Shown here: positions 1-64,000 of the stretch, one piece after another | Layout: each line of letters opens with the position of its first letter | How positions within the stretch are numbered: position 1 is the stretch's first letter | Assembly: GCF_036373705.1 (NCBI RefSeq) | Contig: NC_089851.1 | Location: 58,111,593-58,175,592 of the forward strand | Length of the DNA stretch: 64,000 bases | Direction of reading: 5' to 3' | Source: Amia ocellicauda | Taxonomy: Eukaryota; Chordata; Actinopteri; Amiiformes; Amiidae | Notes under the pieces: model-generated | What the model saw: only the letters and a program-made list of their open reading frames with translations | Database searches by the model: none | What the model was told of the DNA's origin: nothing | Position numbers and translations under genes: made by a program

Positions 1-19
1 TCAACTCCCGGACGAGCCC
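1..19 (+). tRNA. tRNA-Pro, 3' end only (cut by window)
   Basis: The last 19 nt of a tRNA-Pro with the canonical CCCGG T-stem strand. It is followed by the flank typical of class B units, so this unit is a class hybrid. Confidence 0.7.
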
Positions 20-534
20 GCTTGGCCCCACTTTGCAGTCACCGAAGTGTTTGTTCGTTTGCTCTTGAAGGCTGGCTTCTGGGCTCCTCTGCACAAGGGA
101 GGGCTATCGACCTCAGATACTGTTGCCTGTAAAGCTGATGGGAAATCAGACTGTCATCTGTGTGTTTTGTTTTCTTTAAAGAAAATGTGTTTTTTACAAG
201 TTCGTTGTTGTTGTTGTTGTTGAGGAGGAGGAGGAGGACATGTAGTGTGTTGTTGAGGAGGAGGAGGACGAAATGTGGTTTGCCGGCTTGTTATGGAGAC
301 CTTTGCTGAACGTGTACTCCTGAGCTGCACCAAAGGAGAGGCATTCTTTTCAGTTGTTTGCGGGCCTGCTGAACCATGCTCTCAGTGCTGTCTCACTGGG
401 GATGGCGTTACCATTCTGGAAAGACACGTCAGCACTACAGTCCATGCTATCAGTCAGTGAGCGTAGGTCTCCCGGTATGCCCCAAAGCAGTTACGCGCTT
501 GCCCAGCAGAAACTGCGACACGCTCCGTTAACTT

Positions 535-606
535 GGCTCGTTGGTCTAGGGGTATGATTCTCGCTTAGGGTGCGGGAGGTCCCGGGTTCAACTCCCGGAC
601 GAGCCC
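535..606 (+). tRNA. tRNA-Pro (AGG), class A
   Basis: Acceptor GGCTCGT/ACGAGCC pairs fully; the anticodon loop TTAGGGT gives AGG with U33. The 3' anticodon strand GCGGG makes one T-G wobble. A box (TGGTCTAGGGGT) and B box (GGTTCAACTCC) are present. No CCA is encoded and there is no intron. Confidence 0.85.
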
Positions 607-751
607 GCTTGGCACTGCTTTGCGTTCTCTGAAGCATTCGTTTGTTCTCTCTCGATGCTTGGCTTCTGGGCTCCTCTGCACCAGGGAGGTCTTTCAACCT
701 CAGATACTGTTGGCTGTGTAGCTGATGGGAAATCAGACTGTCATCTGTGTG

Positions 752-760
752 TTTTGTTTT
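752..760 (+). terminator. First T-run downstream of a tRNA-Pro (representative)
   Basis: TTTTGTTTT is the first run of four or more T after the tRNA ending at 606, about 145 nt away. The same spacing recurs in every unit (for example 46,517-46,520 after the tRNA ending at 46,371). It is the nearest candidate pol III stop; use as a terminator is inferred. Confidence 0.35.
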
Positions 761-1121
761 CTTTAAAGAAAATGTGTTTTTTACAAGTTCGTTGTTGTTG
801 TTGTTGTTGAGGAGGAGGAGGAGGACATGTAGTGTGTTGTTGAGGAGGAGGAGGACGAAATGTGGTTTGCCGGCTTGTTATGGAGACCTTTGCTGAACGT
901 GTACTCCTGAGCTGCACCAAAGGAGAGGCATTCTTTTCAGTTGTTTGCGGGCCTGCTGAACCATGCTCTCAGTGCTGTCTCACTGGGGATACGGTTACCG
1001 TTCTGGAAAGACACGTCAGCGCTACAGTCCATGCTATCAGTCAGTGAGCGTAGGTCTCCCGGTCTGCCCCAAAGCAGTTACGCGCTTGCCCAGCAGAAAC
1101 TGCGACACCCTCCGTTAACTT

Positions 1122-1193
1122 GGCTCGTTGGTCTAGGGGTATGATTCTTGCTGAGGGTGTGAGAGGCCCTGGGTTCAACTCCAGGACGAGCCC
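1122..1193 (+). pseudogene. tRNA-Pro-like, class B1
   Basis: The anticodon loop is TGAGGGT, so AGG is kept but position 33 is G. The anticodon stem CTTGC/GTGAG pairs through wobbles. The T stem in the normal register has one mismatch; shifted by one base it forms CCTGG/CCAGG around an 8-nt loop. A and B boxes are kept, so pol III transcription remains possible. Confidence 0.75.
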
Positions 1194-1714
1194 ACTTGGC
1201 CCCACTTTGCAGTCACCGAAGTGTTTGTTTGTTTGCTCTTGAAGGCTGGCTTCTGGGCTCCTCTGCACAAGAGAGGGCTATCGACCTCAGATACTGTTGC
1301 CCGTATAGCTGATGGGAAATCAGACTGTCATCTGTGTGTTTTGTTTTCTTTAAAGAAAATGTGTTTTTTACAAGTTCGTTGTTGTTGTTGTTGTTGTTGT
1401 TGAGGAGGAGGTGGAGGACATGTAGTGTGTTGTTGAGGAGGAGGAGGACGAAATGTGGTTTGCCGGCTTGTTATGGAGACCTTTGCTGAACGTGTACTCC
1501 TGAGCTGCACCAAAGGAGAGGCATTCTTTTCAGTTGTTTGCGGGCCTGCTGAACCATGCTCTCAGTGCTGTCTCACTGGGGATGGCGTTACCATTCTGGA
1601 AAGACACGTCAGCGCTACAGTCCATGCTATCAGTCAGTGAGCGTAGGTCTCCCGGTCTGCCCCAAAGCAGTTACGCGCTTGCCCAGCAGAAACTGCGACA
1701 CGCTCCGTTAACTT

Positions 1715-1786
1715 GGCTCGTTGGTCTAGGGGTATGATTCTTGCTGAGGTTGTGAGAGGCCCTGGGTTCAACTCCAGGACGAGCCC
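1715..1786 (+). pseudogene. tRNA-Pro-like, class B2
   Basis: As class B1, but the loop is TGAGGTT: position 37, next to the anticodon, is T and no longer the G expected in tRNA-Pro. Confidence 0.75.
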
Positions 1787-2307
1787 ACTTGGCCCCACTT
1801 TGCAGTCACCGAAGTGTTTGTTCGTTTGCTCTTGAAGGCTGGCTTCTGGGCTCCTCTGCACAAGGGAGGGCTATCGACCTCAGATACTGTTGCCTGTAAA
1901 GCTGATGGGAAATCAGACTGTCATCTGTGTGTTTTGTTTTCTTTAAAGAAAATGTGTTTTTTACAAGTTCGTTGTTGTTGTTGTTGTTGTTGTTGAGGAG
2001 GAGGTGGAGGACATGTAGTGTGTTGTTGAGGAGGAGGAGGACGAAATGTGGTTTGCCGGCTTGTTATGGAGACCTTTGCTGAACGTGTACTCCTGAGCTG
2101 CACCAAAGGAGAGGCATTCTTTTCAGTTGTTTGCGGGCCTGCTGAACCATGCTCTCAGTGCTGTCTCACTGGGGATGGCGTTACCATTCTGGAAAGACAC
2201 GTCAGCGCTACAGTCCATGCTATCAGTCAGTGAGCGTAGGTCTCCCGGTCTGCCCCAAAGCAGTTACGCGCTTGCCCAGCAGAAACTGCGACACGCTCCG
2301 TTAACTT

Positions 2308-2379
2308 GGCTCGTTGGTCTAGGGGTATGATTCTTGCTGAGGTTGTGAGAGGCCCTGGGTTCAACTCCAGGACGAGCCC
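2308..2379 (+). pseudogene. tRNA-Pro-like, class B2
   Basis: Loop TGAGGTT; otherwise as the copy at 1,715. Confidence 0.75.
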
Positions 2380-2894
2380 ACTTGGCCCCACTTTGCAGTC
2401 ACCGAAGTGTTTGTTCGTTTGCTCTTGAAGGCTGGCTTCTGGGCTCCTCTGCACAAGGGAGGGCTATCGACCTCAGATACTGTTGCCAGTAAAGCTGATG
2501 GGAAATCAGACTGTCATCTGTGTGTTTTGTTTTCTTTAAAGAAAATGTGTTTTTTACAAGTTCGTTGTTGTTGTTGTTGTTGAGGAGGTGGAGGAGGACA
2601 TGTAGTGTGTTGTTGAGGAGGAGGAGGACGAAATGTGGTTTGCCGGCTTGTTATGGAGACCTTTGCTGAACGTGTACTCCTGAGCTGCACCAAAGGAGAG
2701 GCATTCTTTTCAGTTGTTTGCGGGCCTGCTGAACCATGCTCTCAGTGCTGTCTCACTGGGGATACGGTTACCGTTCTGGAAAGACACGTCAGCGCTACAG
2801 TCCATGCTATCAGTCAGTGAGCGTAGGTCTCCCGGTCTGCCCCAAAGCAGTTACGCGCTTGCCCAGCAGAAACTGCGACACGCTCCGTTAACTT

Positions 2895-2966
2895 GGCTCG
2901 TTGGTCTAGGGGTATGATTCTTGCTGAGGGTGTGAGAGGCCCTGGGTTCAACTCCAGGACGAGCCC
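2895..2966 (+). pseudogene. tRNA-Pro-like, class B1
   Basis: Loop TGAGGGT with G33. Confidence 0.75.
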
Positions 2967-3487
2967 ACTTGGCCCCACTTTGCAGTCACCGAAGTGTTTG
3001 TTTGTTTGCTCTTGAAGGCTGGCTTCTGGGCTCCTCTGCACAAGGGAGGGCTATCGACCTCAGATACTGTTGCCCGTATAGCTGATGGGAAATCAGACTG
3101 TCATCTGTGTGTTTTGTTTTCTTTAAAGAAAATGTGTTTTTTACAAGTTCGTTGTTGTTGTTGTTGTTGTTGTTGAGGAGGAGGTGGAGGACATGTAGTG
3201 TGTTGTTGAGGAGGAGGAGGACGAAATGTGGTTTGCCGGCTTGTTATGGAGACCTTTGCTGAACGTGTACTCCTGAGCTGCACCAAAGGAGAGGCATTCT
3301 TTTCAGTTGTTTGCGGGCCTGCTGAACCATGCTCTCAGTGCTGTCTCACTGGGGATGGCGTTACCATTCTGGAAAGACACGTCAGCGCTACAGTCCATGC
3401 TATCAGTCAGTGAGCGTAGGTCTCCCGGTCTGCCCCAAAGCAGTTACGCGCTTGCCCAGCAGAAACTGCGACACCCTCCGTTAACTT

Positions 3488-3559
3488 GGCTCGTTGGTCT
3501 AGGGGTATGATTCTTGCTGAGGTTGTGAGAGGCCCTGGGTTCAACTCCAGGACGAGCCC
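3488..3559 (+). pseudogene. tRNA-Pro-like, class B2
   Basis: Loop TGAGGTT. Confidence 0.75.
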
Positions 3560-4080
3560 ACTTGGCCCCACTTTGCAGTCACCGAAGTGTTTGTTCGTTT
3601 GCTCTTGAAGGCTGGCTTCTGGGCTCCTCTGCACAAGGGAGGGCTATCGACCTCAGATACTGTTGCCTGTAAAGCTGATGGGAAATCAGACTGTCATCTG
3701 TGTGTTTTGTTTTCTTTAAAGAAAATGTGTTTTTTACAAGTTCGTTGTTGTTGTTGTTGTTGTTGTTGAGGAGGAGGTGGAGGACATGTAGTGTGTTGTT
3801 GAGGAGGAGGAGGACGAAATGTGGTTTGCCGGCTTGTTATGGAGACCTTTGCTGAACGTGTACTCCTGAGCTGCACCAAAGGAGAGGCATTCTTTTCAGT
3901 TGTTTGCGGGCCTGCTGAACCATGCTCTCAGTGCTGTCTCACTGGGGATGGCGTTACCATTCTGGAAAGACACGTCAGCGCTACAGTCCATGCTATCAGT
4001 CAGTGAGCGTAGGTCTCCCGGTCTGCCCCAAAGCAGTTACGCGCTTGCCCAGCAGAAACTGCGACACCCTCCGTTAACTT

Positions 4081-4152
4081 GGCTCGTTGGTCTAGGGGTA
4101 TGATTCTTGCTGAGGTTGTGAGAGGCCCTGGGTTCAACTCCAGGACGAGCCC
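4081..4152 (+). pseudogene. tRNA-Pro-like, class B2
   Basis: Loop TGAGGTT. Confidence 0.75.
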
Positions 4153-4670
4153 ACTTGGCCCCACTTTGCAGTCACCGAAGTGTTTGTTCGTTTGCTCTTG
4201 AAGGCTGGCTTCTGGGCTCCTCTGCACAAGGGAGGGCTATCGACCTCAGATACTGTTGCCTGTAAAGCTGATGGGAAATCAGACTGTCATCTGTGTGTTT
4301 TGTTTTCTTTAAAGAAAATGTGTTTTTTACAAGTTCGTTGTTGTTGTTGTTGTTGAGGAGGAGGAGGAGGAGGACATGTAGTGTGTTGTTGAGGAGGAGG
4401 AGGACGAAATGTGGTTTGCCGGCTTGTTATGGAGACCTTTGCTGAACGTGTACTCCTGAGCTGCACCAAAGGAGAGGCATTCTTTTCAGTTGTTTGCGGG
4501 CCTGCTGAACAATGCTCTCAGTGCTGTCTCACTGGGGATGGCGTTACCATTCTGGAAAGACACGTCAGCGCTACAGTCCATGCTATCAGTCAGTGAGCGT
4601 AGGTCTCCCGGTCTGCCCCAAAGCAGTTACGCGCTTGCCCAGCAGAAACTGTGACATTGTCAGATAACTT

Positions 4671-4742
4671 GGCTCGTTGGTCTAGGGGTATGATTCTCGC
4701 TTTGGGTGCGAGAGGTCCCGGGTTCAACTCCCGGACGAGCCC
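4671..4742 (+). tRNA. tRNA-Pro (TGG), class T
   Basis: Full cloverleaf pairing, loop TTTGGGT giving anticodon TGG with U33 and G37, and canonical T arm CCGGG/CCCGG. The 5' flank differs from other classes (tgtcagataactt just before the tRNA). Confidence 0.92.
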
Positions 4743-5248
4743 GCTTGGCCCTGCTTTGCATTCTCTGAAGCATTCGTTTGTTCTCTCTCGATGCTTGGCT
4801 TCTGGGCTCCTCTGCACCAGGGAGGTCTTTCAACCTCAGATACTGTTGGCTGTGTAGCTGATGGGAAATCAGACTGTCATCTGTGTGTTTTGTTTTCTTT
4901 AAAGAAAATGTGTATTTTACAAGTTCGTTGTTGTTGTTGAGGAGGAGGAGGACATGTAGTGTGTTGTTGAGGAGGAGGAGGACGAAATGTGGTTTGCCGG
5001 CTTGTTATGGAGACCTTTGCTGAACGTGTACTCCTGAGCTGCACCAAAGGAGAGGCATTCTTTTCAGTTGTTTGCGGGCCTGCTGAACCATGCTCTCAGT
5101 GCTGTCTCACTGGGGATACGGTTACCGTACTGGAAAGACACTTCAGCGCTACAGTCCATGCTATCAGTCAGTGAGCGTAGGTCTCCCGGTCTGCCCCAAA
5201 GCAGTTACGCGCTTGCCCAGCAGAAACTGCGACACCCTCCGTTAACTT

Positions 5249-5320
5249 GGCTCGTTGGTCTAGGGGTATGATTCTTGCTGAGGGTGTGAGAGGCCCTGGG
5301 TTCAACTCCAGGATGAGCCC
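5249..5320 (+). pseudogene. tRNA-Pro-like, class B1
   Basis: Class B1 with an extra acceptor change (ATGAGCC), which leaves a G-T wobble. Confidence 0.72.
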
Positions 5321-5826
5321 ACTTGGCCCCACTTTGCAGTCACCGAAGTGTTTGTTCGTTTGCTCTTGAAGGCTGGCTTCTTGGCTCCTCTGCACAAGGG
5401 AGGGCTATCGACCTCAGATACTGTTGCCTGTAAAGCTGATGGGAAATCAGACTGTCATCTGTGTGTTTTGTTTTCTTTAAAGAAAATGTGTTTTTTACAA
5501 GTTCGTTGTTGTTGTTGAGGAGGAGGAGGACATGTAGTGTGTTGTTGAGGAGGAGGAGGACGAAATGTGGTTTGCCGGCTTGTTATGGAGACCTTTGCTG
5601 AACGTGTACTCCTGAGCTGCACCAAAGGAGAGGCATTCTTTTCAGTTGTTTGCGGGCCTGCTGAACCATGCTCTCAGTGCTGTCTCACTGGGGATACGGT
5701 TACCGTTCTGGAAAGACACTTCAGCGCTACAGTCCATGCTATCAGTCAGTGAGCGTAGGTCTCCCGGTCTGCCCCAAAGCAGTTACGCGCTTGCCCAGCA
5801 GAAACTGCGACACCCTCCGTTAACTT

Positions 5827-5898
5827 GGCTAGTTGGTCTAGGGGTATGATTCTTGTTGAGGGTGTGAGAGGCCCTGGGTTCAACTCCAGGACGAGCCC
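5827..5898 (+). pseudogene. tRNA-Pro-like, class B1, more diverged
   Basis: The acceptor reads GGCTAGT and the anticodon stem CTTGT, both weakening pairing. Confidence 0.72.
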
Positions 5899-6419
5899 AC
5901 TTGGCCCCACTTTGCAGTCACCGAAGTGTTTGTTCGTTTGCTCTTGAAGGCTGGCTTCTGGGCTCCTCTGCACAAGGGAGGGCTATCGACCTCAGATACT
6001 GTTGCCCGTATAGCTGATGGGAAATCAGACTGTCATCTGTGTGTTTTGTTTTCTTTAAAGAAAATGTGTTTTTTACAAGTTCGTTGTTGTTGTTGTTGTT
6101 GTTGTTGAGGAGGAGGAGGAGGACATGTAGTGTGTTGTTGAGGAGGAGGAGGACGAAATGTGGTTTGCCGGCTTGTTATGGAGACCTTTGCTGAACGTGT
6201 ACTCCTGAGCTGCACCAAAGGAGAGGCATTCTTTTCAGTTGTTTGCGGGCCTGCTGAACCATGCTCTCAGTGCTGTCTCACTGGGGATGGCGTTACCATT
6301 CTGGAAAGACACGTCAGCGCTACAGTCCATGCTATCAGTCAGTGAGCGTAGGTCTCCCGGTCTGCCCCAAAGCAGTTACGCGCTTGCCCAGCAGAAACTG
6401 CGACACCCTCCGTTAACTT

Positions 6420-6491
6420 GGCTCGTTGGTCTAGGGGTATGATTCTTGCTGAGGTTGTGAGAGGCCCTGGGTTCAACTCCAGGACGAGCCC
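6420..6491 (+). pseudogene. tRNA-Pro-like, class B2
   Basis: Loop TGAGGTT. Confidence 0.75.
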
Positions 6492-7009
6492 ACTTGGCCC
6501 CACTTTGCAGTCACCGAAGTGTTTGTTCGTTTGCTCTTGAAGGCTGGCTTCTGGGCTCCTCTGCACAAGGGAGGGCTATCGACCTCAGATACTGTTGCCT
6601 GTAAAGCTGATGGGAAATCAGACTGTCATCTGTGTGTTTTGTTTTCTTTAAAGAAAATGTGTTTTTTACAAGTTCGTTGTTGTTGTTGTTGTTGAGGAGG
6701 AGGAGGTGGAGGACATGTAGTGTGTTGTTGAGGAGGAGGAGGACGAAATGTGGTTTGCCGGCTTGTTATGGAGACCTTTGCTGAACGTGTACTCCTGAGC
6801 TGCACCAAAGGAGAGGCATTCTTTTCAGTTGTTTGCGGGCCTGCTGAACCATGCTCTCAGTGCTGTCTCACTGGGGATACGGTTACCGTTCTGGAAAGAC
6901 ACGTCAGCGCTACAGTCCATGCTATCAGTCAGTGAGCGTAGGTCTCCCGGTCTGCCCCAAAGCAGTTACGCGCTTGCCCAGCAGAAACTGCGACACTCTC
7001 CGTTAACTT

Positions 7010-7081
7010 GGCTCGTTGGTCTAGGGGTATGATTCTTGCTGAGGGTGTGAGAGGCCCTGGGTTCAACTCCAGGACGAGCCC
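7010..7081 (+). pseudogene. tRNA-Pro-like, class B1
   Basis: Loop TGAGGGT. Confidence 0.75.
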
Positions 7082-7602
7082 ACTTGGCCCCACTTTGCAG
7101 TCACCGAAGTGTTTGTTCGTTTGCTCTTGAAGGCTGGCTTCTGGGCTCCTCTGCACAAGGGAGGGCTATCGACCTCAGATACTGTTGCCTGTAAAGCTGA
7201 TGGGAAATCAGACTGTCATCTGTGTGTTTTGTTTTCTTTAAAGAAAATGTGTTTTTTACAAGTTCGTTGTTGTTGTTGTTGTTGTTGTTGAGGAGGAGGT
7301 GGAGGACATGTAGTGTGTTGTTGAGGAGGAGGAGGACGAAATGTGGTTTGCCGGCTTGTTATGGAGACCTTTGCTGAACGTGTACTCCTGAGCTGCACCA
7401 AAGGAGAGGCATTCTTTTCAGTTGTTTGCGGGCCTGCTGAACCATGCTCTCAGTGCTGTCTCACTGGGGATGGCGTTACCATTCTGGAAAGACACGTCAG
7501 CGCTACAGTCCATGCTATCAGTCAGTGAGCGTAGGTCTCCCGGTCTGCCCCAAAGCAGTTACGCGCTTGCCCAGCAGAAACTGTGACACTGTCAGATAAC
7601 TT

Positions 7603-7674
7603 GGCTCGTTGGTCTAGGGGTATGATTCTCGCTTTGGGTGCGAGAGGTCCCGGGTTCAACTCCCGGACGAGCCC
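7603..7674 (+). tRNA. tRNA-Pro (TGG), class T
   Basis: Canonical throughout; first member of the first 1,758-bp trimer. Confidence 0.92.
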
Positions 7675-8180
7675 GCTTGGCCCTGCTTTGCATTCTCTGA
7701 AGCATTCGTTTGTTCTCTCTCGATGCTTGGCTTCTGGGCTCCTCTGCACCAGGGAGGTCTTTCAACCTCAGATACTGTTGGCTGTGTAGCTGATGGGAAA
7801 TCAGACTGTCATCTGTGTGTTTTGTTTTCTTTAAAGAAAATGTGTATTTTACAAGTTCGTTGTTGTTGTTGAGGAGGAGGAGGACATGTAGTGTGTTGTT
7901 GAGGAGGAGGAGGACGAAATGTGGTTTGCCGGCTTGTTATGGAGACCTTTGCTGAACGTGTACTCCTGAGCTGCACCAAAGGAGAGGCATTCTTTTCAGT
8001 TGTTTGCGGGCCTGCTGAACCATGCTCTCAGTGCTGTCTCACTGGGGATACGGTTACCGTTCTGGAAAGACACGTCAGCGCTACAGTCCATGCTATCAGT
8101 CAGTGAGCGTAGGTCTCCCGGTCTGCCCCAAAGCAGTTACGCGCTTGCCCAGCAGAAACTGCAACACCCTCCGTTAACTT

Positions 8181-8252
8181 GGCTCGTTGGTCTAGGGGTA
8201 TGATTCTTGCTGAGGGTGTGAGAGGCCCTGGGTTCAACTCCAGGACGAGCCC
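8181..8252 (+). pseudogene. tRNA-Pro-like, class B1
   Basis: Loop TGAGGGT; second member of the trimer. Confidence 0.75.
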
Positions 8253-8773
8253 ACTTGGCCCCACTTTGCAGTCACCGAAGTGTTTGTTCGTTTGCTCTTG
8301 AAGGCTGGCTTCTGGGCTCCTCTGCACAAGAGAGGGCTATCGACCTCAGATACTGTTGCCCGTATAGCTGATGGGAAATCAGACTGTCATCTGTGTGTTT
8401 TGTTTTCTTTAAAGAAAATGTGTTTTTTACAAGTTCGTTGTTGTTGTTGTTGTTGTTGTTGAGGAGGAGGTGGAGGACATGTAGTGTGTTGTTGAGGAGG
8501 AGGAGGACGAAATGTGGTTTGCCGGCTTGTTATGGAGACCTTTGCTGAACGTGTACTCCTGAGCTGCACCAAAGGAGAGGCATTCTTTTCAGTTGTTTGC
8601 GGGCCTGCTGAACCATGCTCTCAGTGCTGTCTCACTGGGGATGGCGTTACCATTCTGGAAAGACACGTCAGCGCTACAGTCCATGCTATCAGTCAGTGAG
8701 CGTAGGTCTCCCGGTCTGCCCCAAAGCAGTTACGCGCTTGCCCAGCAGAAACTGCGACACCCTCCGTTAACTT

Positions 8774-8845
8774 GGCTCGTTGGTCTAGGGGTATGATTCT
8801 TGCTGAGGTTGTGAGAGGCCCTGGGTTCAACTCCAGGACGAGCCA
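8774..8845 (+). pseudogene. tRNA-Pro-like, class B2
   Basis: Loop TGAGGTT; last base (discriminator position) is A, not C. Third member of the trimer. Confidence 0.73.
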
Positions 8846-9360
8846 ACTTGGCCCCACTTTGCAGTCACCGAAGTGTTTGTTCGTTTGCTCTTGAAGGCTG
8901 GCTTCTGGGCTCCTCTGCACAAGGGAGGGCTATCGACCTCAGATACTGTTGCCTGTAAAGCTGATGGGAAATCAGACTGTCATCTGTGTGTTTTGTTTTC
9001 TTTAAAGAAAATGTGTTTTTTACAAGTTCGTTGTTGTTGTTGTTGAGGAGGAGGAGGTGGAGGACATGTAGTGTGTTGTTGAGGAGGAGGAGGACGAAAT
9101 GTGGTTTGCCGGCTTGTTATGGAGACCTTTGCTGAACGTGTACTCCTGAGCTGCACCAAAGGAGAGGCATTATTTTCAGTTGTTTGCGGGCCTGCTGAAC
9201 AATGCTCTCAGTGCTGTCTCACTGGGGATGGCGTTACCATTCTGGAAAGACACGTCAGCGCTACAGTCCATGCTATCAGTCAGTGAGCGTAGGTCTCCCG
9301 GTCTGCCCCAAAGCAGTTACGCGCTTGCCCAGCAGAAACTGTGACACTGTCAGATAACTT

Positions 9361-9432
9361 GGCTCGTTGGTCTAGGGGTATGATTCTCGCTTTGGGTGCG
9401 AGAGGTCCCGGGTTCAACTCCCGGACGAGCCC
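9361..9432 (+). tRNA. tRNA-Pro (TGG), class T
   Basis: Canonical; starts the second trimer. Confidence 0.92.
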
Positions 9433-9938
9433 GCTTGGCCCTGCTTTGCATTCTCTGAAGCATTCGTTTGTTCTCTCTCGATGCTTGGCTTCTGGGCTCC
9501 TCTGCACCAGGGAGGTCTTTCAACCTCAGATACTGTTGGCTGTGTAGCTGATGGGAAATCAGACTGTCATCTGTGTGTTTTGTTTTCTTTAAAGAAAATG
9601 TGTATTTTACAAGTTCGTTGTTGTTGTTGAGGAGGAGGAGGACATGTAGTGTGTTGTTGAGGAGGAGGAGGACGAAATGTGGTTTGCCGGCTTGTTATGG
9701 AGACCTTTGCTGAACGTGTACTCCTGAGCTGCACCAAAGGAGAGGCATTCTTTTCAGTTGTTTGCGGGCCTGCTGAACCATGCTCTCAGTGCTGTCTCAC
9801 TGGGGATACGGTTACCGTTCTGGAAAGACACGTCAGCGCTACAGTCCATGCTATCAGTCAGTGAGCGTAGGTCTCCCGGTCTGCCCCAAAGCAGTTACGC
9901 GCTTGCCCAGCAGAAACTGCGACACCCTCCGTTAACTT

Positions 9939-10010
9939 GGCTCGTTGGTCTAGGGGTATGATTCTTGCTGAGGGTGTGAGAGGCCCTGGGTTCAACTCCA
10001 GGACGAGCCC
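9939..10010 (+). pseudogene. tRNA-Pro-like, class B1
   Basis: Loop TGAGGGT. Confidence 0.75.
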
Positions 10011-10531
10011 ACTTGGCCCCACTTTGCAGTCACCGAAGTGTTTGTTCGTTTGCTCTTGAAGGCTGGCTTCTGGGCTCCTCTGCACAAGAGAGGGCTATCG
10101 ACCTCAGATACTGTTGCCCGTATAGCTGATGGGAAATCAGACTGTCATCTGTGTGTTTTGTTTTCTTTAAAGAAAATGTGTTTTTTACAAGTTCGTTGTT
10201 GTTGTTGTTGTTGTTGTTGAGGAGGAGGTGGAGGACATGTAGTGTGTTGTTGAGGAGGAGGAGGACGAAATGTGGTTTGCCGGCTTGTTATGGAGACCTT
10301 TGCTGAACGTGTACTCCTGAGCTGCACCAAAGGAGAGGCATTCTTTTCAGTTGTTTGCGGGCCTGCTGAACCATGCTCTCAGTGCTGTCTCACTGGGGAT
10401 GGCGTTACCATTCTGGAAAGACACGTCAGCGCTACAGTCCATGCTATCAGTCAGTGAGCGTAGGTCTCCCGGTCTGCCCCAAAGCAGTTACGCGCTTGCC
10501 CAGCAGAAACTGCGACACCCTCCGTTAACTT

Positions 10532-10603
10532 GGCTCGTTGGTCTAGGGGTATGATTCTTGCTGAGGTTGTGAGAGGCCCTGGGTTCAACTCCTGGACGAG
10601 CCC
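10532..10603 (+). pseudogene. tRNA-Pro-like, class B2
   Basis: Loop TGAGGTT; the 3' T-stem strand is CCTGG here, unlike other B copies. Confidence 0.73.
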
Positions 10604-53286: not shown

Positions 53287-53358
53287 GGCTCGTTGGTCTA
53301 GGGGTATGATTCTTGCTGAGGGTGTGAGAGGCCCTGGGTTCAACTCCAGGACGAGCCC
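53287..53358 (+). pseudogene. tRNA-Pro-like, class B1
   Basis: Loop TGAGGGT; its unit has the short GTT tract usual for class A units. Confidence 0.75.
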
Positions 53359-53864: not shown

Positions 53865-53936
53865 GGCTCGTTGGTCTAGGGGTATGATTCTCGCTTAGGG
53901 TGCGAGAGGTCCCGGGTTCAACTCCCGGACGAGCCC
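53865..53936 (+). tRNA. tRNA-Pro (AGG), class A
   Basis: Canonical. Confidence 0.93.
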
Positions 53937-54442
53937 GCTTGGCCCCGCTTTGCATTCTCTGAAGCATTCGTTTGTTCTCTCTCGATGCTTGGCTTCTGGG
54001 CTCCTCTGCACCAGGGAGGTCTTTCAACCTCAGATACTGTTGGCTGTGTAGCTGATGAGAAATCAGACTGTCATCTGTGTGTTTTGTTTTCTTTAAAGAA
54101 AATGTGTATTTTACAAGTTCGTTGTTGTTGTTGAGGAGGAGGAGGACATGTAGTGTGTTGTTGAGGAGGAGGAGGACGAAATGTGGTTTGCCGGCTTGTT
54201 ATGGAGACCTTTGCTGAACGTGTACTCCTGAGCTGCACCAAAGGAGAGGCATTCTTTTCAGTTGTTTGCGGGCCTGCTGAACCATGCTCTCAGTGCTGTC
54301 TCACTGGGGATACGGTTACCGTTCTGGAAAGACACTTCAGCGCTACAGTCCATGCTATCAGTCAGTGTGCGTAGGTCTCCCGGTCTGCCCCAAAGCAGTT
54401 ACGCGCTTGCCCAGCAGAAACTGCGACACCCTCCGTTAACTT

Positions 54443-54514
54443 GGCTCGTTGGTCTAGGGGTATGATTCTTGCTGAGGGTGTGAGAGGCCCTGGGTTCAAC
54501 TCCAGGACGAGCCC
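54443..54514 (+). pseudogene. tRNA-Pro-like, class B1
   Basis: Loop TGAGGGT; short-GTT unit. Confidence 0.75.
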
Positions 54515-55020
54515 ACTTGGCCCCACTTTGTAGTCACCGAAGTGTTCGTTCGTTTGCTCTTGAAGGCTGGCTTCTGGGCTCCTCTGCACAAGGGAGGGCT
54601 ATCGACCTCAGATACTGTTGGCTGTATAGCTGATGGGAAATCAGACTGTCATCTGTGTGTTTTGTTTTCTTTAAAGAAAATGTGTATTTTACAAGTTCGT
54701 TGTTGTTGTTGAGGAGGAGGAGGACATGTAGTGTGTTGTTGAGGAGGAGGAGGACGAAATGTGGTTTGCCGGCTTGTTATGGAGACCTTTGCTGAACGTG
54801 TACTCCTGAGCTGCACCAAAGGAGAGGCATTCTTTTCAGTTGTTTGCGGGCCTGCTGAACCATGCTCTCAGTGCTGTCTCACTGGGGATACGGTTACCGT
54901 TCTGGAAAGACACTTCAGCGCTACAGTCCATGCTATCAGTCAGTGAGCGTAGGTCTCCCGGTCTGCCCCAAAGCAGTTACGCGCTTGCCCAGCAGAAACT
55001 GCGACACCCTCCGTTAACTT

Positions 55021-55092
55021 GGCTCGTTGGTCTAGGGGTATGATTCTCGCTTAGGGTGCGAGAGGTCCCGGGTTCAACTCCCGGACGAGCCC
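55021..55092 (+). tRNA. tRNA-Pro (AGG), class A
   Basis: Canonical. Confidence 0.93.
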
Positions 55093-55598
55093 GCTTGGCC
55101 CCGCTTTGCATTCTCTGAAGCATTCGTTTGTTCTCTCTCGATGCTTGGCTTCTGGGCTCCTCTGCACCAGGGAGGTCTTTCAACCTCAGATACTGTTGGC
55201 TGTGTAGCTGATGAGAAATCAGACTGTCATCTGTGTGTTTTGTTTTCTTTAAAGAAAATGTGTATTTTACAAGTTCGTTGTTGTTGTTGAGGAGGAGGAG
55301 GACATGTAGTGTGTTGTTGAGGAGGAGGAGGACGAAATGTGGTTTGCCGGCTTGTTATGGAGACCTTTGCTGAACGTGTACTCCTGAGCTGCACCAAAGG
55401 AGAGGCATTCTTTTCAGTTGTTTGCGGGCCTGCTGAACCATGCTCTCAGTGCTGTCTCACTGGGGATACGGTTACCGTTCTGGAAAGACACTTCAGCGCT
55501 ACAGTCCATGCTATCAGTCAGTGTGCGTAGGTCTCCCGGTCTGCCCCAAAGCAGTTACGCGCTTGCCCAGCAGAAACTGCGACACCCTCCGTTAACTT

Positions 55599-55670
55599 GG
55601 CTCGTTGGTCTAGGGGTATGATTCTTGCTGAGGGTGTGAGAGGCCCTAGGTTCAACTCCAGGACGAGCCC
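55599..55670 (+). pseudogene. tRNA-Pro-like, class B1, T-arm variant
   Basis: Loop TGAGGGT; the T arm reads CCCTAGGTTCAACTCCAGG, adding a mismatch even in the shifted register. Confidence 0.75.
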
Positions 55671-56188
55671 ACTTGGCCCCACTTTGTAGTCACCGAAGTG
55701 TTCGTTCGTTTGCTCTTGAAGGCTGGCTTCTGGGCTCCTCTGCACAAGGGAGGGCTATCGACCTCAGATACTGTTGGCTGTATAGCTGATGGGAAATCAG
55801 ACTGTCATCTGTGTGTTTTGTTTTCTTTAAAGAAAATGTGTTTTTTACAAGTTCGTTGTTGTTGTTGTTGTTGTTGAGGAGGAGGAGGAGGACATTAAGT
55901 GTGTTGTTGAGGAGGAGGAGGACGAAATGTGGTTTGCCGGCTTGTTATGGAGTCCTTTGCTGAACGTGTACTCCTGAGCTGCACCAAAGGAGAGGCATTC
56001 TTTTCAGTTGTTTGCGGGCCTGCTGAACCATGCTCTCAGTGCTGTCTCACTGGGGATACGGTTACCGTTCTGGAAAGACACTTCAGCGCTACAGTCCATG
56101 CTATCAGTCAGTGAGCGTAGGTCTCCCGGTCTGCCCCAAAGCAGTTACGCGCTTGCCCAGCAGAAACTGCGACACCCTCCGTTAACTT

Positions 56189-56260
56189 GGCTCGTTGGTC
56201 TAGGGGTATGATTCTTGCTGAGGGTGTGAGAGGCCCTAGGTTCAACTCCAGGACGAGCCC
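56189..56260 (+). pseudogene. tRNA-Pro-like, class B1, T-arm variant
   Basis: Same T-arm change as the preceding copy, so these two adjacent units share recent ancestry. Confidence 0.75.
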
Positions 56261-56766
56261 ACTTGGCCCCACTTTGTAGTCACCGAAGTGTTCGTTCGTT
56301 TGCTCTTGAAGGCTGGCTTCTGGGCTCCTCTGCACAAGGGAGGGCTATCGACCTCAGATACTGTTGGCTGTATAGCTGATGGGAAATCAGACTGTCATCT
56401 GTGTGTTTTGTTTTCTTTAAAGAAAATGTGTATTTTACAAGTTCGTTGTTGTTGTTGAGGAGGAGGAGGACATGTAGTGTGTTGTTGAGGAGGAGGAGGA
56501 CGAAATGTGGTTTGCCGGCTTGTTATGGAGACCTTTGCTGAACGTGTACTCCTGAGCTGCACCAAAGGAGAGGCATTCTTTTCAGTTGTTTGCGGGCCTG
56601 CTGAACCATGCTCTCAGTGCTGTCTCACTGGGGATACGGTTACCGTTCTGGAAAGACACTTCAGCGCTACAGTCCATGCTATCAGTCAGTGAGCGTAGGT
56701 CTCCCGGTCTGCCCCAAAGCAGTTACGCGCTTGCCCAGCAGAAACTGCGACACCCTCCGTTAACTT

Positions 56767-56838
56767 GGCTTGTTGGTCTAGGGGTATGATTCTCGCTTAG
56801 GGTGCGAGAGGTCCCGGGTTCAACTCCCGGACGAGCCC
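56767..56838 (+). tRNA. tRNA-Pro (AGG), class A
   Basis: The acceptor reads GGCTTGT, leaving one wobble pair; otherwise canonical. Confidence 0.88.
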
Positions 56839-57344
56839 GCTTGGCCCCGCTTTGCATTCTCTGAAGCATTCGTTTGTTCTCTCTCGATGCTTGGCTTCTG
56901 GGCTCCTCTGCACCAGGGAGGTCTTTCAACCTCAGATACTGTTGGCTGTGTAGCTGATGAGAAATCAGACTGTCATCTGTGTGTTTTGTTTTCTTTAAAG
57001 AAAATGTGTATTTTACAAGTTCGTTGTTGTTGTTGAGGAGGAGGAGGACATGTAGTGTGTTGTTGAGGAGGAGGAGGACGAAATGTGGTTTGCCGGCTTG
57101 TTATGGAGACCTTTGCTGAACGTGTACTCCTGAGCTGCACCAAAGGAGAGGCATTCTTTTCAGTTGTTTGCGGGCCTGCTGAACCATGCTCTCAGTGCTG
57201 TCTCACTGGGGATACGGTTACCGTTCTGGAAAGACACTTCAGCGCTACAGTCCATGCTATCAGTCAGTGTGCGTAGGTCTCCCGGTCTGCCCCAAAGCAG
57301 TTACGCGCTTGCCCAGCAGAAACTGCGACACCCTCCGTTAACTT

Positions 57345-57416
57345 GGCTCGTTGGTCTAGGGGTATGATTCTCGCTGAGGGTGTGAGAGGCCCTGGGTTCA
57401 ACTCCAGGACGAGCCC
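57345..57416 (+). pseudogene. tRNA-Pro-like, A/B hybrid
   Basis: The 5' anticodon strand is CTCGC as in class A, but the loop is TGAGGGT and the T arm is class B. Suggests gene conversion inside the tRNA. Confidence 0.75.
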
Positions 57417-57922
57417 ACTTGGCCCCACTTTGTAGTCACCGAAGTGTTTGTTCGTTTGCTCTTGAAGGCTGGCTTCTGGGCTCCTCTGCACAAGGGAGGG
57501 CTATCGACCTCAGATACTGTTGGCTGTGTAGCTGATGGGAAATCAGACTGTCATCTGAGTGTTTTGTTTTCTTTAAAGAAAATGTGTATTTTACTAGTTC
57601 GTTGTTGTTGTTGAGGAGGAGGAGGACATGTAGTGTGTTGTTGAGGAGGAGGAGGACGAAATGTGGTTTGCCGGCTTGTTATGGAGACCTTTGCTGAACG
57701 TGTACTCCTGAGCTGCACCAAAGGAGAGGCATTCTTTTCAGTTGTTTGCGGGCCTGCTGAACCATGCTCTCAGTGCTGTCTCACTGGGGATACGGTTACC
57801 GTTCTGGAAAGACACTTCAGCGCTACAGTCCATGCTATCAGTCAGTGAGCGTAGGTCTCCCGGTCTGCCCCAAAGCAGTTACGCGCTTGCCCAGCAGAAA
57901 CTGCGACACCCTCCGTTAACTT

Positions 57923-57994
57923 GGCTCGTTGGTCTAGGGGTATGATTCTCGCTTAGGGTGCGAGAGGTCCCGGGTTCAACTCCCGGACGAGCCC
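57923..57994 (+). tRNA. tRNA-Pro (AGG), class A
   Basis: Canonical. Confidence 0.93.
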
Positions 57995-58500
57995 GCTTGG
58001 CACTGCTTTGCATTCTCTGAAGCATTCGTTTGTTCTCTCTCGATGCTTGGCTTCTGGGCTCCTCTGCACAAGGGAGGGCTATCGACCTCAGATACTGTTG
58101 GCTGTGTAGCTGATGGGAAATCAGACTGTCATCTGTGTGTTTTGTTTTCTTTAAAGAAAATGTGTATTTTACTAGTTCGTTGTTGTTGTTGAGGAGGAGG
58201 AGGACATGTAGTGTGTTGTTGAGGAGGAGGAGGACGAAATGTGGTTTGCCGGCTTGTTATGGAGACCTTTGCTGAACGTGTACTCCTGAGCTGCACCAAA
58301 GGAGAGGCATTCTTTTCAGTTGTTTGCGGGCCTGCTGAACCATGCTCTCAGTGCTGTCTCACTGGGGATACGGTTACCGTTCTGGAAAGACACTTCAGCG
58401 CTACAGTCCATGCTATCAGTCAGTGAGCGTAGGTCTCCCGGTCTGCCCCAAAGCAGTTACGCGCTTGCCCAGCAGAAACTGCGACACCCTCCGTTAACTT

Positions 58501-58572
58501 GGCTCGTTGGTCTAGGGGTATGATTCTCGCTTAGGGTGCGAGAGGTCCCGGGTTCAACTCCCGGACGAGCCC
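58501..58572 (+). tRNA. tRNA-Pro (AGG), class A
   Basis: Canonical. Confidence 0.93.
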
Positions 58573-59078
58573 GCTTGGCACTGCTTTGCATTCTCTGAAG
58601 CATTCGTTTGTTCTCTCTCGATGCTTGGCTTCTGGGCTCCTCTGCACCAGGGAGGTCTTTCAACCTCAGTTACTGTTGGCTGTATAGCTGATGGGAAATC
58701 AGACTGTCATCTGTGTGTTTTGTTTTCTTTAAAGAAAATGTGTATTTTACAAGTTCGTTGTTGTTGTTGAGGAGGAGGAGGACATGTAGTGTGTTGTTGA
58801 GGAGGAGGAGGACGAAATGTGGTTTGCCGGCTTGTTATGGAGACCTTTGCTGAACGTGTACTCCTGAGCTGCACCAAAGGAGAGGCATTCTTTTCAGTTG
58901 TTTGCGGGCCTGCTGAACCATGCTCTCAGTGCTGTCTCACTGGGGATACGGTTACCGTTCTGGAAAGACACTTCAGCGCTACAGTCCATGCTATCAGTCA
59001 GTGAGCGTAGGTCTCCCGGTCTGCCCCAAAGCAGTTACGCGCTTGCCCAGCAGAAACTGCGACACCCTCCGTTAACTT

Positions 59079-59150
59079 GGCTCGTTGGTCTAGGGGTATG
59101 ATTCTTGCTGAGGGTGTGAGAGGCCCTAGGTTCAACTCCAGGACGAGCCC
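59079..59150 (+). pseudogene. tRNA-Pro-like, class B1, T-arm variant
   Basis: Loop TGAGGGT with the CCCTAGG T-arm change. Confidence 0.75.
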
Positions 59151-59668
59151 ACTTGGCCCCACTTTGTAGTCACCGAAGTGTTCGTTCGTTTGCTCTTGAA
59201 GGCTGGCTTCTGGGCTCCTCTGCACAAGGGAGGGCTATCGACCTCAGATACTGTTGGCTGTATAGCAGATGGGAAATCAGACTGTCATCTGTGTGTTTTG
59301 TTTTCTTTAAAGAAAATGTGTTTTTTACAAGTTCGTTGTTGTTGTTGTTGTTGTTGAGGAGGAGGAGGAGGACATGTAGTGTGTTGTTGAGGAGGAGGAG
59401 GACGAAATGTGGTTTGCCGGCTTGTTATGGAGACCTTTGCTGAACGTGTACTCCTGAGCTGCACCAAAGGAGAGGCATTCTTTTCAGTTGTTTGCGGGCC
59501 TGCTGAACCATGCTCTCAGTGCTGTCTCACTGGGGATACGGTTACCGTTCTGGAAAGACACTTCAGCGCTACAGTCCATGCTATCAGTCAGTGTGCGTAG
59601 GTCTCCCGGTCTGCCCCAAAGCAGTTACGCGCTTGCCCAGCAGAAACTGCGACACCCTCCGTTAACTT

Positions 59669-59740
59669 GGCTCGTTGGTCTAGGGGTATGATTCTCGCTG
59701 AGGGTGTGAGAGGCCCTGGGTTCAACTCCAGGACGAGCCC
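59669..59740 (+). pseudogene. tRNA-Pro-like, A/B hybrid
   Basis: Same hybrid as the copy at 57,345. Confidence 0.75.
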
Positions 59741-60246
59741 ACTTGGCCCCACTTTGTAGTCACCGAAGTGTTTGTTCGTTTGCTCTTGAAGGCTGGCTTC
59801 TGGGCTCCTCTGCACAAGGGAGGGCTATCGACCTCAGATACTGTTGGCTGTGTAGCTGATGGGAAATCAGACTGTCATCTGTGTGTTTTGTTTTCTTTAA
59901 AGAAAATGTGTATTTTACAAGTTCGTTGTTGTTGTTGAGGAGGAGGAGGACATGTAGTGTGTTGTTGAGGAGGAGGAGGACGAAATGTGGTTTGCCGGCT
60001 TGTTATGGAGACCTTTGCTGAACGTGTACTCCTGAGCTGCACCAAAGGAGAGGCATTCTTTTCAGTTGTTTGCGGGCCTGCTGAACCATGCTCTCAGTGC
60101 TGTCTCACTGGGGATACGGTTACCGTTCTGGAAAGACACTTCAGCGCTACAGTCCATGCTATCAGTCAGTGAGCGTAGGTCTCCCGGTCTGCCCCAAAGC
60201 AGTTACGCGCTTGCCCAGCAGAAACTGCGACACCCTCCGTTAACTT

Positions 60247-60318
60247 GGCTCGTTGGTCTAGGGGTATGATTCTCGCTTAGGGTGCGAGAGGTCCCGGGTT
60301 CAACTCCCGGACGAGCCC
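60247..60318 (+). tRNA. tRNA-Pro (AGG), class A
   Basis: Canonical. Confidence 0.93.
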
Positions 60319-60824
60319 GCTTGGCACTGCTTTGCATTCTCTGAAGCATTCGTTTGTTCTCTCTCGATGCTTGGCTTCTGGGCTCCTCTGCACCAGGGAG
60401 GTCTTTCAACCTCAGATACTGTTGGCTGTATAGCTGATGGGAAATCAGACTGTCATCTGTGTGTTTTGTTTTCTTTAAAGAAAATGTGTATTTTACAAGT
60501 TCGTTGTTGTTGTTGAGGAGGAGGAGGACATGTAGTGTGTTGTTGAGGAGGAGGAGGACGAAATGTGGTTTGCCGGCTTGTTATGGAGACCTTTGCTGAA
60601 CGTGTACTCCTGAGCTGCACCAAAGGAGAGGCATTCTTTTCAGTTGTTTGCGGGCCTGCTGAACCATGCTCTCAGTGCTGTCTCACTGGGGATACGGTTA
60701 CCGTTCTGGAAAGACACTTCAGCGCTACAGTCCATGCTATCAGTCAGTGAGCGTAGGTCTCCCGGTCTGCCCCAAAGCAGTTACGCGCTTGCCCAGCAGA
60801 AACTGCGACACCCTCCGTTAACTT

Positions 60825-60896
60825 GGCTCGTTGGTCTAGGGGTATGATTCTTGCTGAGGGTGTGAGAGGCCCTAGGTTCAACTCCAGGACGAGCCC
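60825..60896 (+). pseudogene. tRNA-Pro-like, class B1, T-arm variant
   Basis: Loop TGAGGGT with the CCCTAGG change. Confidence 0.75.
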
Positions 60897-61417
60897 ACTT
60901 GGCCCCACTTTGTAGTCACCGAAGTGTTTGTTCGTTTGCTCTTGAAGGCTGGCTTCTGGGCTCCTCTGCACAAGGGAGGGCTATCGACCTCAGATACTGT
61001 TGGCTGTATAGCTGATGGGAAATCAGACTGTCATCTGTGTGTTTTGTTTTCTTTAAAGAAAATGTGTTTTTTACAAGTTCGTTGTTGTTGTTGTTGTTGT
61101 TGTTGAGGAGGAGGAGGAGGACATGTAGTGTGTTGTTGAGGAGGAGGAGGACGAAATGTGGTTTGCCGGCTTGTTATGGAGACCTTTGCTGAACGTGTAC
61201 TCCTGAGCTGCACCAAAGGAGAGGCATTCTTTTCAGTTGTTTGCGGGCCTGCTGAACCATGCTCTCAGTGCTGTCTCACTGGGGATACGGTTACCGTTCT
61301 GGAAAGACACTTCAGCGCTACAGTCCATGCTATCAGTCAGTGAGCGTAGGTCTCCCGGTCTGCCCCAAAGCAGTTACGCGCTTGCCCAGCAGAAACTGCG
61401 ACACCCTCCGTTAACTT

Positions 61418-61489
61418 GGCTCGTTGGTCTAGGGGTATGATTCTCGCTTAGGGTGCGAGAGGTCCCGGGTTCAACTCCCGGACGAGCCC
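61418..61489 (+). tRNA. tRNA-Pro (AGG), class A
   Basis: Canonical. Confidence 0.93.
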
Positions 61490-61995
61490 GCTTGGCACTG
61501 CTTTGCATTCTCTGAAGCATTCGTTTGTTCTCTCTCGATGCTTGGCTTCTGGGCTCCTCTGCACCAGGGAGGTCTTTCAACCTCAGTTACTGTTGGCTGT
61601 ATAGCTGATGGGAAATCAGACTGTCATCTGTGTGTTTTGTTTTCTTTAAAGAAAATGTGTATTTTACAAGTTCGTTGTTGTTGTTGAGGAGGAGGAGGAC
61701 ATGTAGTGTGTTGTTGAGGAGGAGGAGGACGAAATGTGGTTTGCCGGCTTGTTATGGAGACCTTTGCTGAACGTGTACTCCTGAGCTGCACCAAAGGAGA
61801 GGCATTCTTTTCAGTTGTTTGCGGGCCTGCTGAACCATGCTCTCAGTGCTGTCTCACTGGGGATACGGTTACCGTTCTGGAAAGACACTTCAGCGCTACA
61901 GTCCATGCTATCAGTCAGTGAGCGTAGGTCTCCCGGTCTGCCCCAAAGCAGTTACGCGCTTGCCCAGCAGAAACTGCGACACCCTCCGTTAACTT

Positions 61996-62067
61996 GGCTC
62001 GTTGGTCTAGGGGTATGATTCTTGCTGAGGGTGTGAGAGGCCCTAGGTTCAACTCCAGGACGAGCCC
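61996..62067 (+). pseudogene. tRNA-Pro-like, class B1, T-arm variant
   Basis: Loop TGAGGGT with the CCCTAGG change. Confidence 0.75.
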
Positions 62068-62588
62068 ACTTGGCCCCACTTTGTAGTCACCGAAGTGTTT
62101 GTTCGTTTGCTCTTGAAGGCTGGCTTCTGGGCTCCTCTGCACAAGGGAGGGCTATCGACCTCAGATACTGTTGGCTGTATAGCTGATGGGAAATCAGACT
62201 GTCATCTGTGTGTTTTGTTTTCTTTAAAGAAAATGTGTTTTTTACAAGTTCGTTGTTGTTGTTGTTGTTGTTGTTGAGGAGGAGGAGGAGGACATGTAGT
62301 GTGTTGTTGAGGAGGAGGAGGACGAAATGTGGTTTGCCGGCTTGTTATGGAGACCTTTGCTGAACGTGTACTCCTGAGCTGCACCAAAGGAGAGGCATTC
62401 TTTTCAGTTGTTTGCGGGCCTGCTGAACCATGCTCTCAGTGCGGTCTCACTGGGGATACGGTTACCGTTCTGGAAAGACACTTCAGCGCTACAGTCCATG
62501 CTATCAGTCAGTGAGCGTAGGTCTCCCGGTCTGCCCCAAAGCAGTTACGCGCTTGCCCAGCAGAAACTGCGACACCCTCCGTTAACTT

Positions 62589-62660
62589 GGCTCGTTGGTC
62601 TAGGTGTATGATTCTCGCTTAGGGTGCGAGAGGTCCCGGGTTCAACTCCCGGACGAGCCC
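62589..62660 (+). tRNA. tRNA-Pro (AGG), D-loop variant
   Basis: The D loop reads ctaggtgtatg, changing one of the conserved G residues and the A box; otherwise canonical. Confidence 0.8.
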
Positions 62661-63166
62661 GCTTGGCCCCGCTTTGCATTCTCTGAAGCATTCGTTTGTT
62701 CTCTCTCGATGCTTGGCTTCTGGGCTCCTCTGCACCAGGGAGGTCTTTCAACCTCAGATACTGTTGGCTGTGTAGCTGATGGGAAATCAGACTGTCATCT
62801 GTGTGTTTTGTTTTCTTTAAAGAAAATGTGTATTTTACAAGTTCGTTGTTGTTGTTGAGGAGGAGGAGGACATGTAGTGTGTTGTTGAGGAGGAGGAGGA
62901 CGAAATGTGGTTTGCCGGCTTGTTATGGAGACCTTTGCTGAACGTGTACTCCTGAGCTGCACCAAAGGAGAGGCATTCTTTTCAGTTGTTTGCGGGCCTG
63001 CTGAACCATGCTCTCAGTGCTGTCTCACTGGGGATACGGTTACCGTTCTGGAAAGACACTTCAGCGCTACAGTCCATGCTATCAGTCAGTGAGCGTAGGT
63101 CTCCCGGTCTGCCCCAAAGCAGTTACGCGCTTGCCCAGCAGAAACTGCGACACCCTCCGTTAACTT

Positions 63167-63238
63167 GGCTCGTTGGTCTAGGGGTATGATTCTTGCTGAG
63201 GGTGTGAGAGGCCCTGGGTTCAACTCCAGGACGAGCCC
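63167..63238 (+). pseudogene. tRNA-Pro-like, class B1
   Basis: Loop TGAGGGT. Confidence 0.75.
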
Positions 63239-63756
63239 ACTTGGCCCCACTTTGTAGTCACCGAAGTGTTTGTTCGTTTGCTCTTGAAGGCTGGCTTCTG
63301 GGCTCCTCTGCACAAGGGAGGGCTATCGACCTCAGATACTGTTGGCTGTATAGCTGATGGGAAATCAGACTGTCATCTGTGTGTTTTGTTTTCTTTAAAG
63401 AAAATGTGTTTTTTACAAGTTCGTTGTTGTTGTTGTTGTTGTTGAGGAGGAGGAGGAGGACATGTAGTGTGTTGTTGAGGAGGAGGAGGACGAAATGTGG
63501 TTTGCCGGCTTGTTATGGAGACCTTTGCTGAACGTGTACTCCTGAGCTGCACCAAAGGAGAGGCATTCTTTTCAGTTGTTTGCGGGCCTGCTGAACCATG
63601 CTCTCAGTGCTGTCTCACTGGGGATACGGTTACCGTTCTGGAAAGACACTTCAGCGCTACAGTCCATGATATCAGTCAGTGTGCGTAGGTCTCCCGGTCT
63701 GCCCCAAAGCAGTTACGCGCTTGCCCAGCAGAAACTGCGACACGCTCCGTTAACTT

Positions 63757-63828
63757 GGCTCGTTGGTCTAGGGGTATGATTCTTGCTGAGGGTGTGAGAG
63801 GCCCTGGGTTCAACTCCAGGACGAGCCC
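63757..63828 (+). pseudogene. tRNA-Pro-like, class B1
   Basis: Loop TGAGGGT; last copy in the window. Confidence 0.75.
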
Positions 63829-64000
63829 ACTTGGCCCCACTTTGTAGTCACCGAAGTGTTTGTTCGTTTGCTCTTGAAGGCTGGCTTCTGGGCTCCTCTG
63901 CACAAGGGAGGGCTATCGACCTCAGATACTGTTGGCTGTATAGCTGATGGGAAATCAGACTGTCATCTGTGTGTTTTGTTTTCTTTAAAGAAAATGTGTA

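Follow-up and report, generated by a model that had tools for sequence, protein, structure and literature searches.

Long tandem arrays of tRNA genes are already known. In Xenopus, oocyte-type tRNA genes form tandem repeats linked to oocyte supply beside somatic genes; their units are longer, and their isotypes other, than those of the tRNA-Pro array that we describe here in a 64,000-bp stretch of the Amia ocellicauda genome (the window; positions 58111593-58175592 of contig NC_089851.1, called C2 below, in a genome of 988 Mb). The published systems that follow are cited from parts of the papers concerned. Zebrafish has 8676 high-confidence tRNA genes, mostly in repetitive clusters (PMC11417395), and about 60% of its tRNA genes lie on chromosome 4 (PMC11574265). 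Repetitive regions supply the isodecoders of the egg and early embryo, and scattered genes supply the late ones (PMC11417395); the authors of another study proposed that the chromosome 4 tRNA genes are maternal (PMC11075544). The array resembles zebrafish, chiefly its chromosome 4, in that very many clustered tRNA genes exist beside a small scattered set (PMC11417395, PMC11574265, PMC11075544); unlike zebrafish, it consists of one isotype, with a monomer of about 0.58 kb, two ordered classes and super-repeats of 87-95 kb.

A teleost survey (PMC2888827) puts clustered tRNA genes and pseudogenes at 65% in zebrafish and 87% in stickleback, with neighbours mostly parallel; in the part cited here it gives counts, without a monomer, class order or super-repeat. 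The Arabidopsis SYY and Pro clusters (PMC12308677) are also tandem tRNA repeats with pseudogene copies, and are silenced in most tissues and active in special cells, but the SYY unit holds three tRNA genes, the copies are far fewer and the host is a plant. At human 1q23.3 (PMC4041453), vertebrate tRNA genes likewise lie in a copy-variable tandem repeat, although the unit there is 7.3 kb long and an allele has 9-43 units. Entamoeba (PMC2652664) shares long tandem tRNA arrays with repeat-rich spacers; unlike the array here, a unit can contain as many as five tRNA genes, and nearly all genomic tRNA genes are arrayed. A literature search on higher-order repeats and tRNA-bearing satellite DNA in fish returned only centromere titles, which is not proof of absence in print. 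The large, ordered array is a variant of the tandem tRNA arrays already known.

ARAGORN reported 59 tRNA hits in the window, 57 of which are array units, all on the + strand (24 to the left and 33 to the right of an island of 30.1 kb). The units, with one tRNA each, are arranged head to tail at nearly constant spacing: every step within the arrays (55/55) measures 578-593 bp. Together the two arrays (about 1-14670 and 44783-64000) span 33.9 kb. Whole units differ by 0-8.2%, a likeness far beyond chance. By their anticodon loops, 19 units are AGG (TTAGGGT), 5 are TGG (TTTGGGT) and 33 have G33 (TGAGGGT or TGAGGTT); we call class P the units with U33 and a Pro anticodon (24/57) and class b those with G33 (33/57). 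An earlier, sequence-only reading of the window had described units of this length and orientation around a 30-kb island, filling more than half the window (about 34 kb), with 24 copies that combine U33 with AGG or TGG and with ordered classes; the layout was borne out, and the 24 copies were recovered exactly. The array features are the following, with A standing for AGG and T for TGG.

1-14670, + strand: left array, 24 complete tRNA units and a terminal truncated b unit
1-14670, + strand: classes of the left array, A at 535 and 14034; T at 4671, 7603, 9361, 11119 and 12877; 17 b
14433-14670, + strand: truncated b unit at the end of the left array, its tRNA starting within the D arm (read by eye)
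44783-64000, + strand: right array, a truncated unit and then 33 complete units (17 A, 16 b), continuing beyond the window end
44783-44941, + strand: truncated unit at the start of the right array, its tRNA ending after about 20 nt (44833-44852)
46300-46877, + strand: example P unit, 578 bp; tRNA-Pro(AGG) with C59 at 46300-46371, the remainder spacer
46517-46520, + strand: first TTTT downstream of the example P gene, at 145 nt; more T-runs at 150 and 172 nt
52119-52708, + strand: example of a b unit (590 bp), its decayed G33 tRNA-Pro lying at 52119-52190

Class P has a full cloverleaf, U33, a Pro anticodon and both A and B boxes. A full-window Rfam scan listed 22 of the 24 P units and none of the 33 b units; when one b copy was scanned by itself under relaxed filters, it scored 30.3 bits, just above the cut-off of 29, vs 52 for P. 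Class b lacks both U33, with G33 in all 33 window copies, and intact stems: its anticodon stem contains two G-U pairs, and its T stem a U-G pair and a G-A opposition. Under one definition of the cloverleaf for all sequences, with the D stem counted as a single pair, the energy was -22.7 kcal/mol for P and -9.9 kcal/mol for b (four b variants, -8.9 to -12.7). Class b is therefore most likely a decayed tRNA-Pro, a pseudogene carried as a passenger. Weighing against this are its abundance, its fair uniformity and the fact that positions in the A and B boxes are altered in few of 144 copies. ARAGORN labelled b as Leu(GAG). This was ruled out: the label comes from reading the loop one base out of register, and the tRNA, at 72 nt, has no long variable arm. 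A long variable arm is the rule for tRNA-Leu.

The classes follow a regular order, T-b-b in the left array and A-b in the right. Units accordingly resemble each other most at a fixed lag: in the left array the difference is lowest at lag 3 (2.10% vs 4.22% at lag 1), in the right array at lag 2 (2.20% vs 3.94%), and in a block at 150-167 kb at lag 4 (0.84% vs 3.95%). In the three blocks compared, units are thus homogenized as ordered dimers, trimers or tetramers, and these minima fit what unequal exchange among multi-unit blocks would be expected to leave. Across 55 units, P and b differ at 9.6% of tRNA sites, in 20% of alignment columns 73-170 and by 0.5-3.2% in the later spacer; the classes are therefore distinct near the gene and common elsewhere, as spacer exchange would give. 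In a sample of 226 units, the b flank accompanied 140 of 144 b units and the P flank 78 of 82 P units, the others being mixed. At 51.25-52.39 Mb, flanks were less faithful: 23 complete b units had 18 b, 4 P and 1 mixed flank, and 28 complete P units had 14 P and 14 mixed flanks. The mixed flanks indicate that recombination occurs near the gene. Some 150-165 nt past each tRNA, after the first TTTT, the P and b consensus units carry a palindromic stretch, TTTTCTTTAAAGAAAA.

The window is part of a larger system, in which the island between the two arrays recurs.

14671-44782, no strand assigned: transposon island, with copies at window coordinates -72537 to -42276 and 109437 to 139626
40952-41235, - strand: diverged inverted relic of a Pro unit within the island (ARAGORN: Thr AGT), present in both other island copies

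The upstream copy of the island is 98.4% identical over 4.6 kb and 99.86% over 25.7 kb, and the downstream copy 99.93% over 30.2 kb. Array and island form super-repeats with a period of 87-95 kb, the relic tRNAs being spaced 87.1 and 94.8 kb apart. The island copies are nearly identical, which suggests that entire blocks were duplicated recently; neighbouring blocks vary in unit number and class order. We do not favour the view that the island simply inserted into a single array: it belongs to the repeated block, and the arrays that flank it differ in class order. In 264 kb around the window, 19 kb of it outside the count, we found 233 units, namely 147 b and 86 P (76 AGG and 10 TGG).

At larger scale, 20 probes of 701 bp were placed between 57.50 and 58.80 Mb. 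Among the 19 read, 7 matched the array or island at 97-99.6% (57.70 to 58.40 Mb), 9 a tRNA-Thr/Asn repeat and 1 another repeat, and 2 were unmatched. Fourteen further probes across 49-63 Mb identified 54.0 Mb as Pro array and matched 60.0 Mb to a stretch of the island at 97.7%; three others gave short or partial repeat matches and nine were unmatched. Exact P motifs number 580 genome-wide (196 forward, 384 reverse) and b motifs, for which the pattern permitted two alternatives at two places, 996 (284 forward, 712 reverse). Among the matches listed, P and b motifs all lie on C2 at 51.25-52.40 Mb, on the reverse strand. In segments sampled at 51.25-52.39 and 54.0 Mb, the 74 units comprised 26 b, 22 AGG, 14 with C34 and 12 TGG. 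The array tRNA with C59 was thus found with AGG, TGG or CGG, the CGG array being on C2. Pro arrays occupy C2 from 51.25 to at least 58.30 Mb, with other DNA interspersed. The genome as a whole has hundreds of tRNA-Pro genes, and still more decayed copies, in ordered, satellite-like arrays over millions of bases. The satellite-like amplification of tRNA-Pro that had been proposed for the window is thereby supported, with four additions: the majority class is the decayed G33 relative, the window samples a system that extends along C2, the array isodecoder (C59) is not that of the few dispersed genes (A59), and no Pol III terminator lies near the array genes. The Thr/Asn repeat matched by 9 of the 20 probes is a separate tRNA repeat; at window coordinates -90000 to -87000 it shows Thr(CGT) genes spaced by 1.83 kb, a minisatellite of about 142 bp and, on the opposite strand, an Asn gene.

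Outside the arrays, the 3' half of a canonical tRNA-Pro with A59 occurs at six places, one on C7 and five within 49 kb of C25. Five of these genes are complete (two TGG and three AGG, the AGG loci being 98.5-100% alike); the sixth is defective, with a divergent 5' half. Isodecoders are therefore split between C59 in the array and A59 at the six scattered places. P(AGG) agrees with the canonical dispersed AGG gene at 71 of 72 sites, base 59 being the difference, and b at 65 of 72; whichever its anticodon, P differs from the canonical tRNA outside the wobble base only at base 59. Similarity between the array and the dispersed loci stops within 4 nt of the gene. Since the match is 71/72 while the flanks are unrelated, P looks to be under long-term constraint, as judged from this sequence comparison. 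The CGG segments have 11 complete units; in 3 of them the tRNA matches P exactly except at the wobble base, despite 4.8-5.5% change in the spacer.

Array and dispersed genes also differ in what follows them. The five intact A59 genes have a TTTT 1-4 nt past the gene. In contrast, no RNA polymerase III (Pol III) terminator lies near the array genes, as measured by the first run of four T (T4): in 226 array units it stood 145 nt downstream in 223 and 143 nt downstream in 3, and in 74 units from 51-54 Mb (4 unreadable) at 57-150 nt, mostly 145. Other multi-copy tRNA genes gave comparable values: 173 nt, or none in 170 nt, for Lys (4 loci); 139 nt (4 loci) or 52 nt for Cys; and 52 or 57 nt for Thr, with none within 417 nt in two loci. 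Asn, in the Thr/Asn repeat, was the exception: its T4 follows the gene at 3 nt. Apparently single genes in 3-kb loci had T4 at 12 nt (Thr), 4 nt (Lys) and 2 and 6 nt (Cys). A near T4 was thus found in 1 of 6 repeated gene types vs 10 of 10 scattered genes (Fisher p = 0.0014), on small and partly dependent numbers, with scattered or multi-copy status judged from short loci and equal search scores. With no near T4 in the multi-copy Lys, Cys and Thr genes either, the split between clustered and scattered genes may be general. In yeast, functional terminators may sit far downstream, and steady-state levels of the extended forms are low (PMC4937561, cited in part); by that precedent, a missing near T4 lowers, without excluding, output from the array. 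A literature search on terminators of clustered zebrafish tRNA genes found nothing on the subject by title or start of abstract, which does not prove absence in print.

The explanation that we favour, and to which we give an even chance, is that the arrays may be a tandem, array-type tRNA-Pro set for germline or maternal supply, in which decayed b copies are passengers. In its favour we count the ordered structure, the 71/72 match of P(AGG) to the dispersed gene, the three CGG-segment units whose tRNA is unchanged and the damage in b; by analogy, it also leans on the zebrafish finding that egg and early-embryo isodecoders come from repetitive regions. Unequal exchange would amplify blocks of units, carrying b along, and segmental duplication would copy entire blocks of about 90 kb. 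In the germline or oocyte, where tRNA is required in bulk, the A and B boxes within each P copy would drive its transcription; the transcript would stop in the T-rich stretch 145-175 nt beyond the gene, leaving a long trailer for RNase Z to remove. In the soma the array would be silent and the dispersed genes would serve. Several observations weigh against this account. Variation within the array counts against strong selection on single copies, since variable sites are more frequent in the tRNA than in the spacer: in P, 13 of 72 tRNA sites vary vs 38 of 506 spacer sites, and in b, 15 of 72 vs 82 of 506. Binned by divergence, pairwise tRNA/spacer ratios were 1.11, 0.58, 0.53, 0.92 and 1.20 for P, and 1.97, 1.17, 0.63, 0.78 and 0.63 for b, so that these ratios fail to separate P (0.53-1.20) from b (0.63-1.97); neither site counts nor pairwise ratios showed purifying selection. 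Because this ratio was expected to separate the classes and did not, we rate maternal supply no higher than even. In the CGG segments, 8 of the 11 complete units carry 1-8 tRNA changes (three with one, five with five to eight). Large zebrafish clusters are near-completely CpG-methylated in early embryos (PMC11574265, cited in part). A gene block like that of zebrafish Chr4R was not seen on C2 among matches scored in part: no C2 location occurred among 47 scored 5S matches (of 47274 candidates), 42 scored U1 matches (of 13294) or 21 FISNA matches, U6 not being searched, and zebrafish Chr4R differs in this, its Region-2 block being marked by maternal 5S, U1/U6 and NLR genes on one arm.

Nearly as likely as maternal supply, and a serious if more tentative possibility, is that the array is a silent satellite. 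On this view a functional tRNA-Pro gene would have given rise to a selfish tandem repeat, P would look intact through continued homogenization from a recent master, and dispersed genes would supply all the tRNA-Pro of the cell. In its favour, array genes have no near terminators, and the T4 distance in the array equals chance for its composition (median 88 nt, 5-95% range 6-375 nt); variation shows no dip over the tRNA, b exceeds P (147 vs 86 locally, 996 vs 580 by exact motif), and intact dispersed genes are present for both AGG and TGG. Yet P retains all but one canonical base outside the wobble position between unrelated flanks, it occurs with all three common Pro anticodons, and zebrafish offers a precedent for output from repetitive clusters. 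The terminator data also admit an unlikely variant, in which array genes would form a separate transcription class without near terminators: germline Pol III would read through long trailers and transcribe part of b too, giving a non-decoding, G33 tRNA-like RNA or a trailer RNA with its own role. That class b itself yields a functional product, whether fragments or a tRNA-like RNA that is transcribed but does not decode, seems improbable. Although it is the majority class, widely kept and with few box changes, b varies as freely as its own spacer, three of the sites where it departs from P are CpG positions changed from C to T (read by eye), and hitchhiking in dimers accounts for its copy number. 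We think it very improbable that a shorter array was falsely duplicated in assembly. Island copies up to 99.93% identical are the kind of repeat that is hard to assemble, but adjacent blocks are unlike in their number of units and order of classes, and 6-7 Mb away there are arrays of greater divergence in the opposite orientation.

The island contains further elements. Between window positions 18835 and 31023 lies an element, shared by the three island copies, with inverted terminal repeats of about 0.6 kb and open reading frames that match rve integrase, Chromo and DNA_pol_B_2; we take it to be Polinton/Maverick-like. Just inside one of its terminal repeats is a tRNA-Leu(TAA)-like gene (19514-19596, - strand; Rfam 46.7 bits; T4 5 nt downstream), found in both other island copies too. 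The island also holds fragments of an RVT_1 reverse transcriptase (37374-37769, - strand) and a DDE_3 transposase (43725-44276, - strand). Elsewhere in the genome, many Cys(GCA) genes on C27 (4.25-4.55 Mb) have a T-A pair in the T stem vs C-G in a dispersed copy on C3, and clustered and scattered isodecoders may, by this comparison, differ for Cys too. U1 small nuclear RNA genes form tandems on C8 (22.86-23.24 Mb, steps of about 6.4 kb) and C11 (25.53-25.57 Mb, steps of about 1.03 kb), in two score classes.

The arrays on C2 hold intact and decayed copies of one tRNA in register within one array. Because C59 and A59 tell array output from dispersed output in ordinary tRNA sequencing, the idea of a maternal array would lend itself to a direct test. 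A second prediction, which can be checked in zebrafish, is that dispersed genes have a near terminator and array genes do not. The wider issue is which clustered tRNA copies, out of the thousands in such genomes, work.

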